A stretch of 64,000 nt of DNA, taken from the NCBI GenBank assembly GCA_012932295.1, contig JAAONU010000013.1:45026627-45090626 (forward strand). Direction: 5' to 3'. The notes below the pieces were generated by a model. That model was not told the DNA's origin, ran no database searches, and saw nothing but the letters and a program-made list of their open reading frames with translations. Below, piece after piece: positions 32,401-35,400 of the stretch. A program made the position numbers and the translations under genes. The DNA comes from Cyclina sinensis. Lineage: Eukaryota > Mollusca > Bivalvia > Venerida > Veneridae. Positions within the stretch are counted from its first letter, which is position 1. The number at the start of each line of letters is the position of its first letter.

Positions 32401-35400
32401 GAAGATGTTTTAAAGTGCCTGTGTCAAGCAAACTGCTAGAGTTATTAACAAGTTCATTTTAAAAGTGAAGGTCACTATGGCTCAAACTTTGACACAGTGA
32501 CCTGAAAATCTACAAGGCCATTTAGCAATCCACCATCCAACCCTTCTATTGAATTTGAGGTCAAAGATCATCAGCACTGAATTTACATTTTTGGGTCATT
32601 TATCAGAAACCATGTCATAAGTGAAGGATACTGTGACCTTAAACTTCTGATGTGTTCTTAAGCACTGCATCTATTCATTTTTGATATACTGTAGTAACCT
32701 CAAAATCAACAGCCTGAGGCCCGGGGCCATCATGTCTGACCTTCCAAAAAGGGATGAAAATTCTAAGTGCATTTATTTTTCAGTTATTGCTACGGAAACC
32801 AAGTGAAGGTCTCTGTTATGTTGACCTTTGCAGTGACCTCCAAACTTGTCACGATCAATACTTTTACTAATTCTGAAAATTCTAAACTCACTAATTCAGC
32901 TGATACACATTTATGCAACAACATATCCCCACCTCATTGAAAGTGTTGAAATAAGTGTTATTATAAACAAAATCAGTCAAAGGTATTATAAAGGTACTAT
33001 TCTGTATCTACAGACGATCAATTTCAGATCAAAATCAATCTATTTCAAGGGAGATAACCCAGTAACCATAACACAGTGTAGGATATATACAATATATATA
33101 AATAAAGCCAGTTTATGGAAAGATTTCTAACACTAGAAACTACTACACAGTAACCTTTTTCTCGATCTTAATGAAAATAACAACGGCTACGGACAGCAGT
33201 GTACCTGCAACAGAAGTATCAATAACTTCTATACATGTATGTATATCTCAACTTATATCTACATCTTCAGTCGAAACACAATCAATCAATCAATCAAATC
33301 ACAACAGAATGAACTACAACAGAATGGTGACTACCAAAACATTTTTCCATTCTTTGTATAGTTTTTGCTGGAAATGAACAATACGTTACATATACAAAAA
33401 AGTGATTCTTAAAAAAAATGACAATGTCCCTGTGGATTTGAAAAACTGTGTTTCGACTGTAATTTAATGTAAAATCAATTTTCTTACTGCATCCCTTCTA
33501 ATATATCAGTATCTCAATACAAACATTTCAAAACATCTGTCTGTTGATTATAAATGCTTCAAAAAATCTTAAATATTTCAAAAATGTCTGCTTCATTTAA
33601 TATTTTCTAAGTTTTCAAAACAGTGCCAAGTCCGTCTGGACAGTAAAATAATAGGCACAATTTCTTAAGCAAAAACATACTAAATTAATTCACAATCTGA
33701 GATATCTAGGTGGTAGGTCTCTGGCCCATGACTCCAAATGAGCAAAAATTTCCACTGTTTGTTTCAAATTTTGGAATAAATACTCAACTAAAGAGGCTGA
33801 CAAAATCACAAAAACAAAAAAACCATCTTTTGTAATACTCACCTGAGACAGCAGTTATAATGCCTAGAACTTGTCTGATATTTAGTGCAACACTTACCTG
33901 AAACAGCAGTAACTATGCCTAGAACTTTTCCTATATTTAGTGTAACACTCACCTGAGACAGCAGTTATAATGCCTAGAACTTGTCTTATATTTAGTGTAA
34001 CACTTACCTGAAACAGCAGTTATAATGCCTAGAACTTGTCTTATATTTAGTGTAACACTCACCTGAGACAGCAGTTATAATGCCTAGAACTTGTCTTATA
34101 TTAAGTGTAACACTTACCTGAAACAGCAGTTATAATGCCTAGAACTTGTCTTATATTTAGTGCAACACTTACCTGAAATAGTAGTAACTATGCCTAGAAC
34201 TTTTCTTATATTTAGTGTAACACTCACCTGAAATTGTAGTAACTATGCCTAGAACTTGTCTTATATTTAGTGTAATACTCACCTGAAACAGTAGTTACAA
34301 TACCTAGAACTTGTCTTATATTTAGTGTAACACTCACCTGAAACAGTAGTTACAATACCTAGAACTTGTCTTATATTTAGTGTAACACTCACCTGAAATT
34401 GTAGTTACAATACCTAGAACTTGTCTTATATTTAGTGTAACACTCACCTGAAATTGTAGTTACGATACCTAGAACTTGTCTTATATTTAGTGTAACACTC
34501 ACCTGAAACAGTAGTTACAATACCTAGAACTTGTCTTATATTTAGTGTAACACTCACCTGAAACAGCAGTTACAATGCCTAGAACTTGTCTTATATTTAG
34601 TGCAACACTTACCTGAAACAGTAGTTACAATACCTAGAACTTGTCTTATATTTAGTGTAACACTTACCTGAAACAGTAGTTACAATACCTAGAACTTGTC
34701 TTATATTTAGTGTAACACTCACCTGAAATGGTAGTAATTATACCTAGAACTTGTCTTATATTTATTGTTACACTCACCTGAAATGGTAGTTACAATACCT
34801 AGAACTTGTCTTATATTTAGTGTAACACTCACCTGAAATAGTAGTAATTATGGCTAGAACTTGTCTTATATTTAGTGTAACACTCACCTGAAATGGTAGT
34901 TACGATACCTAGAACTTGTCTTATATTTAGTGTAACACTCACCTGAAATAGTAGTAATTATGGCTAGAACTTGTCTTATATTTAGTGTAACACTCACCTG
35001 AAATGGTAGTTACGATACCTAGAACTTGTCTTATATTTAGTGTAACACTCACCTGAAATAGTAGTAATTATGGCTAGAACTTGTCTTATATTTAGTGTAA
35101 CACTCACCTGAAATGGTAGTTACGATACCTAGAACTTGTCTTATATTTAGTGTAACACTCACCTGAAATAGTAGTAATTATGGCTAGAACTTGTCTTATA
35201 TTTAGTGTAACACTCACCTGAAATGGTAGTTACAATACCTAGAACTTGTCTTATATTTAGTGTATCTTGAAATAACAGATATCCTCCCAGTAAGGTGAGG
35301 CAAAATTTTAGATGGCCAACCATGTTATACCTGAGAAGGGTTAAGGAAAACGTTCAATGCTTTCATATTACATGATTAAGTTGATTCAAAACCATTTCGT

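Follow-up and report, generated by a model that had tools for sequence, protein, structure and literature searches.

The SLC35E3 locus and its terminal exons

The window analyzed here, that is, the whole stretch of 64,000 nucleotides of Cyclina sinensis DNA, carries on its reverse strand a gene encoding an SLC35E3 protein. Its six coding exons were joined in frame, giving a protein of 313 aa, which carries the Pfam domain TPT (E 2.7e-21) and whose closest named homolog among the matches listed is the SLC35E3-like isoform X2 of Mercenaria mercenaria (89% identity, 92% of the query). The exons and the evidence on which they are based are as follows:

44369..44755, minus strand: exon 1, coding part from the methionine of MAAPSQ (in-frame join and alignment with Mercenaria)
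40598..40708, minus strand: exon 2 (in-frame join and alignment with Mercenaria)
36652..36810, minus strand: exon 3 (in-frame join and alignment with Mercenaria)
36223..36305, minus strand: exon 4 (in-frame join and alignment with Mercenaria)
35218..35330, minus strand: exon 5, 113 nt (in-frame join), with the real donor CAG|GTGAGT at 35220-35212
23340..23428, minus strand: exon 6, the more distal of the terminal exons, coding portion including the stop codon (in-frame join)

Since the Mercenaria protein also aligns in frame upstream of exon 1 as delimited here (44756-44818, with a methionine at 44818), the clam protein may gain about 21 residues. Exon 5 was matched by the Mercenaria protein (P0001) at positions 35329-35216 in a tblastn search (89%), and the intron separating it from exon 6 is 11789 nt long. 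Within this intron lie a second candidate terminal exon, which was absent from the preliminary description of this DNA, and a possible polyadenylation signal:

33143..33204, minus strand: candidate exon 6a, coding part, 62 nt, with the acceptor ttctgttgcag|GT, in a phase which fits exon 5, ending in a stop codon
32772..32777, minus strand: AATAAA, candidate poly(A) signal downstream of exon 6a (hexamer match)

The sequence of exon 6a, ttctgttgcag|GTACACTG..., encodes a peptide tail of 20 residues followed by the stop. The last 20 residues of the Mercenaria isoform X2 matched positions 33211-33152 on the gene strand (tblastn, E 0.031), and the site at 33204 ranked first among the 713 AG sites of intron 5 taken in the exon 5 phase, with a score of 42, as compared with 14 for the runner-up in the intron and 20 for that on the whole strand. 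None of 2000 shuffled queries equaled this score. From the homology with the annotated Mercenaria isoform, we infer that 33143-33204 would serve as an alternative terminal exon in Cyclina. The intron between exons 5 and 6a would then be 2013 nt long, 1375 nt of which extend from the intron start to the last junction of the tandem array described below, and exon 6a starts 626 nt past the end of this array. Among 40 homologs examined of a total of 863, in a database clustered at 90% identity, which hides isoforms, a tail of the exon 6a type occurs only in P0001, and the usual tail is also missing from P0067 (Pinctada). A search with a 40-residue region for other proteins carrying the 6a tail gave 29 candidates, none of which had E ≤ 10, but this search is uninformative since it missed even the Mercenaria protein itself.

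Structure and variation of the 55-bp array

The end of exon 5 belongs to a tandem array which runs from the coding sequence into intron 5. The array and its edges are located as follows:

33834..35263, minus strand: 55-bp array, with a unit composed of 46 nt of the exon 5 end and 9 nt of the intron start
35263-35209, minus strand: array unit 1, which holds the real exon 5 end
35261..35264, minus strand: TACA bordering the array on the exon side, a possible upstream arm of the founding 55-bp duplication as proposed from the sequence
33831..33834, minus strand: TACA bordering the array on the intron side, likewise a proposed downstream arm

The array comprises 26 head-to-tail units, each of exactly 55 bp and without any indels; Tandem Repeats Finder called it at 33831-35264, with a period of 55, 26.1 copies, 91% matches and 0% indels. 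Unit 1 consists of 46 coding nucleotides followed by GTGAGTGTT, and beyond the TACA of the intron edge the single-copy intron resumes as AAAGATGG. The preliminary description had read the unit as the last 46 coding nucleotides of exon 5 plus the first 9 nucleotides of the intron, which is confirmed by the register and by the exon assembly, and it had held that all the donors were kept as CAG|GTRAGT, which is the case at all 26 junctions, the 25 spacings between them all being equal to 55 bp. The span it had given (33837..35263) does contain the array, but it stops at 33837, where the last GTGAGT ends, whereas the full units reach 33834. The purine is the sole variable base in the donor (G in 20 units and A in 6). 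Outside the array, CAGGTRAGT does not occur on either strand of the 64 kb (0.32 occurrences per strand are expected from the base composition).

The sequences of the units show a considerable degree of variation: 19 of the 26 are distinct and the mean pairwise divergence is 9.6%. Units 2-8 consist of two identical types in alternation, forming 110-bp dimers, which indicates that part of the growth of the array is recent; the 26 units are therefore not independent samples. The idea that the array might be a recent neutral expansion fits in part, these dimers being recent, but the mean pairwise divergence is 9.6%. The greatest divergence from unit 1 is shown by the last two units, at the far end of the array (9 of the 55 positions each), and units 2, 4, 6, and 8, which adjoin the exon, already show 6 differences. 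All four combinations were found in 31 of the 78 informative column pairs, as expected from exchange between units or from recurrent mutation. A C-to-A change present in unit 10 alone (34761-34766) creates the only AATAAA/ATTAAA hexamer of the array.

By comparison with the consensus, 20 derived alleles were identified, none of which breaks the donor (3.1 expected, P 0.028). However, at most one allele was found in 7 of the 55 circular windows of nine columns, the donor window being one of them, and since other windows are equally quiet, the invariance of the donor taken alone is weak evidence of selection. When the units are read in the exon frame, 17 alleles fall in the 15 full codons: 9 of them are synonymous as against 5.2 expected (P 0.035), only one allele occurs in second codon positions (P 0.006), and the alleles are more conservative than expected (P 0.008), although these tests overlap one another and were chosen after the alignment was seen. 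The combined conservatism score gave P 0.0046, and similar values were obtained when two possibly linked alleles were dropped (0.0058), when only the 13 shared alleles were kept (0.0068), and when the local variability was matched (0.0064). This score amounts to 2.76 in the exon frame versus -0.56 and -0.81 in the two wrong frames. The absence of stop-making alleles among the units is uninformative (P 0.60). The variation thus appears to be coding-like in the exon frame, which suggests that the units may have spent time as the exonic copy or exchanged sequence with it. A simple pass-through model, in which blocks turn over at random and selection acts on unit 1 alone, was simulated and rejected, since it did not reproduce the coding-like signal: with an input harmful share of 0.60, the share among all segregating mutations, counted over 40 runs per setting, was not lowered by selection, the values being 0.526-0.645 when selection was applied (six settings) and 0.533-0.615 when it was absent (six settings).

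Donor choice, U1 pairing, and polyadenylation

In the five units scored, the pairing predicted between the array donors and U1 amounts to -14.0 to -14.1 kcal/mol, as compared with -8.0, -5.3, -7.9, and -1.5 kcal/mol for the donors of exons 1-4 and -11.1 for the best of the 587 other GTs in intron 5. Pairing being far better in the array than in exons 1-4, donor strength would not be limiting here.

The consequences of donor choice differ along the array. Donor 1 gives a product of 313 aa with exon 6 and 304 aa with exon 6a, donor 2 shifts the frame in which the last exon is read (310 or 314 aa), and with donors 3-26 a stop occurs 51-1316 nt ahead of the last junction (computed with exon 6). 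A stop located that far ahead of the last junction usually triggers nonsense-mediated decay. A switch of donor tuning the amount of productive mRNA, as the preliminary description proposed, is mechanically possible in view of these stops and this frameshift, but donors 2-26 would then be harmful rather than useful unless they are regulated or their products repaired. Protein read-through of the array was also considered and rejected: the frame of exon 5 is closed by a stop codon at the second junction (303 aa for donors 3, 4, 5, and 26), and since the unit length of 55 is also not divisible by 3, the array is untranslatable as a run of copies.

All 25 extensions start with GT and end with CAG, so that a further splicing step, joining donor 1 to whichever CAG is retained last, could in principle restore the normal mRNA. 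On the scoring table used, the acceptors at the unit ends are estimated at 0.08-3.51, versus 3.52-9.09 for the five main acceptors of the gene and 5.02 for that of exon 6a, the best of them being practically equal to the weakest main acceptor (exon 3, 3.52). The four unit acceptors ranked among the 585 AGs of intron 5 outside the array fell between the 84th and 95th percentiles. Tandem 21-nt microexons running from TTCTAG to CAG were discarded, since the TTCTAG acceptors (-7.3 to -9.2 in three of the 26 units) lie far below the real ones.

The preliminary description also proposed that the array might shield an AT-rich intron from premature polyadenylation. As stated, this proposal is unsupported, since the density of AATAAA/ATTAAA hexamers in intron 5 outside the array, 1.44 per kb, is within the range of those in the three introns counted for comparison, 1, 2, and 4 (3.83, 2.64, and 1.12 per kb, the latter corresponding to a single hexamer over 892 nt), and thus shows no enrichment. 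In the interval between the array and exon 6a, two further hexamers occur at 33601 and 33468. A 431-nt segment which begins with exon 5 and reaches into the array is predicted to be less structured than 100 of 100 shuffled sequences (z 4.05); a structured RNA was rejected on the basis of this fold and because no Rfam family passed its gathering threshold anywhere in the window.

Origin of the array and comparison with known systems

The most likely account, to which we assign a probability of roughly 0.6, is that of a minisatellite founded by a tandem duplication spanning AG|GT at the exon-intron boundary and tolerated since the first donor is intact. The TACA copies at the two edges, which would have been 55 bp apart at the founding, suggest that the first duplication occurred between 4-bp repeats straddling the exon 5 donor and created a second exon end with its donor. 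Block duplications, some of them of 110 bp like the dimers observed, would then have extended the array to 26 units within intron 5. Unit 1 being intact, exon 5 could still end at the first donor, and this may be the reason why the array is tolerated; the GT...CAG extensions are intron-like and might be removed later without any change in the mRNA. The conservation of the donors would be due mostly to copying rather than to any task performed by the downstream donors, and the lineages of the units may have spent time as the exonic copy, or been swapped with it, and thereby acquired the coding-like variation, which the simulation fails to reproduce. This account agrees with the exact 55-bp register, the identity of unit 1 with the real exon end, the TACA edges, the dimers and the form of the extensions, as well as with the high divergence of the two units at the far end, the column pairs showing all four combinations and the coding-like variation in the exon frame. 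Since the window holds other large tandem arrays, of which intron 5 contains two, the local DNA seems to expand readily. Several points count against it: the absence of donor-breaking alleles (0/20, P 0.028) is equally expected if the donors are functional; such alleles should be favored if the downstream donors caused mis-splicing, and none was found among the 20; the gradient of divergence away from the exon is not clean, in view of the 6 differences in units 2, 4, 6, and 8; and the simulated selection on unit 1 leaves the coding-like signal unaccounted for.

The minisatellite of the human gene IFI6 (6-16) reportedly consists of a 12-bp repeat in 26 copies and starts close to where exon 2 ends, and so would also be located at an exon-intron boundary, and its first unit, like that of the clam array, is said to be the real donor. 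Contrary to the preliminary description, whose author knew of no case of this kind, Turri, Cuin and Porter (1995; doi 10.1093/nar/23.11.1854) published on a minisatellite which supplies several splice donors to the interferon-induced transcript 6-16 (IFI6, G1P3), as cited in PMC4526556, PMC2915984, and PMC2572611. According to the first of these, two downstream repeat units act as donors in alternative transcripts (PMC4526556). In both genes the units carry donor sequences, and in the clam 26 of 26 match the donor consensus; downstream donors are reported to be used in IFI6 and are candidates in the clam. Unlike the IFI6 repeat, the clam unit of 55 bp includes 46 nt of coding exon and is not a multiple of 3, its downstream donors lead to a stop or a frameshift, and a second terminal exon follows the array. 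The clam array thus has at least one published precedent, from which it is set apart by a longer unit that includes coding sequence, by the perfect preservation of its donors and by a second terminal exon downstream.

Other systems show more partial similarities. In the Rogers model of intron gain by tandem duplication of AGGT, exemplified by ATP2A1 (Hellsten 2011), the duplicate supplies both splice sites and the mRNA is unchanged, and in fission yeast 24-bp exonic repeats form multiple AGGT duplicates, with introns across four or two of them (PMC4974935). The clam segment also carries AGGT, and its extra copies form GT...AG in 25 of 25 cases, but it straddles a donor that was already present and extends the intron behind it, whereas in the model a wholly exonic segment gives rise to a new intron. 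In genes located in human segmental duplications, exon-intron boundaries carry variable internal tandem repeats, which modify splicing and can turn into introns (PMC2812944); the clam repeat occupies a similar position, but these human repeats occur in paralogs, and the text available of that paper mentions no long donor array. The recursive splice sites (ratchet points) of Drosophila consist of an acceptor and a donor juxtaposed as AG|GT (PMC8605326) and are sites within long introns, unlike the tandem clam array, with its mostly weak predicted acceptors. No array of this kind was found in any mollusc in a literature search judged by titles and the openings of abstracts.

A regulatory role of the array is possible on the basis of its sequence. 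The array might act as a donor or U1 rheostat ahead of exon 6a, restraining its acceptor or its poly(A) site and favoring exon 6 or decay, with a strength set by the copy number. We take this to be rather unlikely. Exon 6a, with its homology support, its position 626 nt past the array, the AATAAA at 32777 and the hexamers at 33601 and 33468, possibly gives a U1 role a more concrete target; up to 26 near-perfect U1 sites, five of which were scored at about -14 kcal/mol, lie within the 2-kb stretch ahead of it, none of the 20 alleles breaks the donor, the 431-nt region is predicted to be open (z 4.05), and the suppression of intronic polyadenylation by U1 is an effect already described. However, several windows are as quiet as that of the donor (7 of 55 including it), the hexamers are not enriched in intron 5, and a U1 platform does not predict the coding-frame signal. 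Somewhat less probable still is a combination in which a copy-number-tunable array of 26 U1-binding donors, located between exon 5 and the proximal terminal exon, would set the ratio between the two C-termini of SLC35E3, or the amount of productive mRNA, and in which exchange between the units and the exon would spread purifying selection on both donors and frame to all the units.

It is no less doubtful that the units form a chain of recursive splice sites, in which each TTTCAG|GTRAGT or variant would be both acceptor and donor, the intron would be removed stepwise, wrong choices would be repaired, and introns of 55n nt would be born. Most of the unit acceptors score below all five main acceptors (3.52-9.09) and that of exon 6a (5.02) on the same scoring table, and a single 55-nt unit is probably below the length of an efficient intron; yet the 25 extensions all have the GT...CAG form, the best unit acceptor (3.51) is very close to that of exon 3 (3.52), and four ranked units reach the 84th-95th percentiles. 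The juxtaposition of AG and GT is also that of the Drosophila ratchet points (PMC8605326), and the gain of introns through duplication of AGGT has been described (PMC4974935). That the copy number, or even the array itself, results from an error in the resolution of repeats during assembly seems very improbable: the identical 110-bp dimers of units 2-8 are prone to misassembly, but 19 of the 26 units are distinct, their variants are ordered and the single-copy edges are clean. The tolerated boundary minisatellite is the account we prefer.

With 26 near-identical and near-perfect donors at a fixed spacing, followed by two terminal exons, the locus constitutes a natural experiment on the choice of donor among equals. 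It also bears on the questions whether repeats spanning AG|GT are neutral with respect to splicing and whether the density of U1 sites controls the choice of terminal exon. If the coding-like variation in the non-coding copies holds, it would show how selection on a single exonic copy reaches a whole minisatellite.

The window contains several other repeats. Tandem arrays of 145 bp are present at 6180-7600 and 14927-16214, and an array of 62 bp at 17983-18487. A stop-to-stop frame of 528 codons at 1702-3288 on the minus strand has no Pfam match at E ≤ 0.01; judging from its composition, one might guess that it resembles a gag-type protein of a mobile element. Two arrays are located in intron 5, one of 165/331 bp at 27182-28531 and the other of 90 copies of 24 bp at 29614-31812. 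The unit of the latter reads like ATATCTCTCTCTACAACATACAGT on the transcript strand, and since it consists of a pyrimidine run followed by CAG, numerous sites resembling acceptors may be present here, on the downstream side of the 55-bp array.
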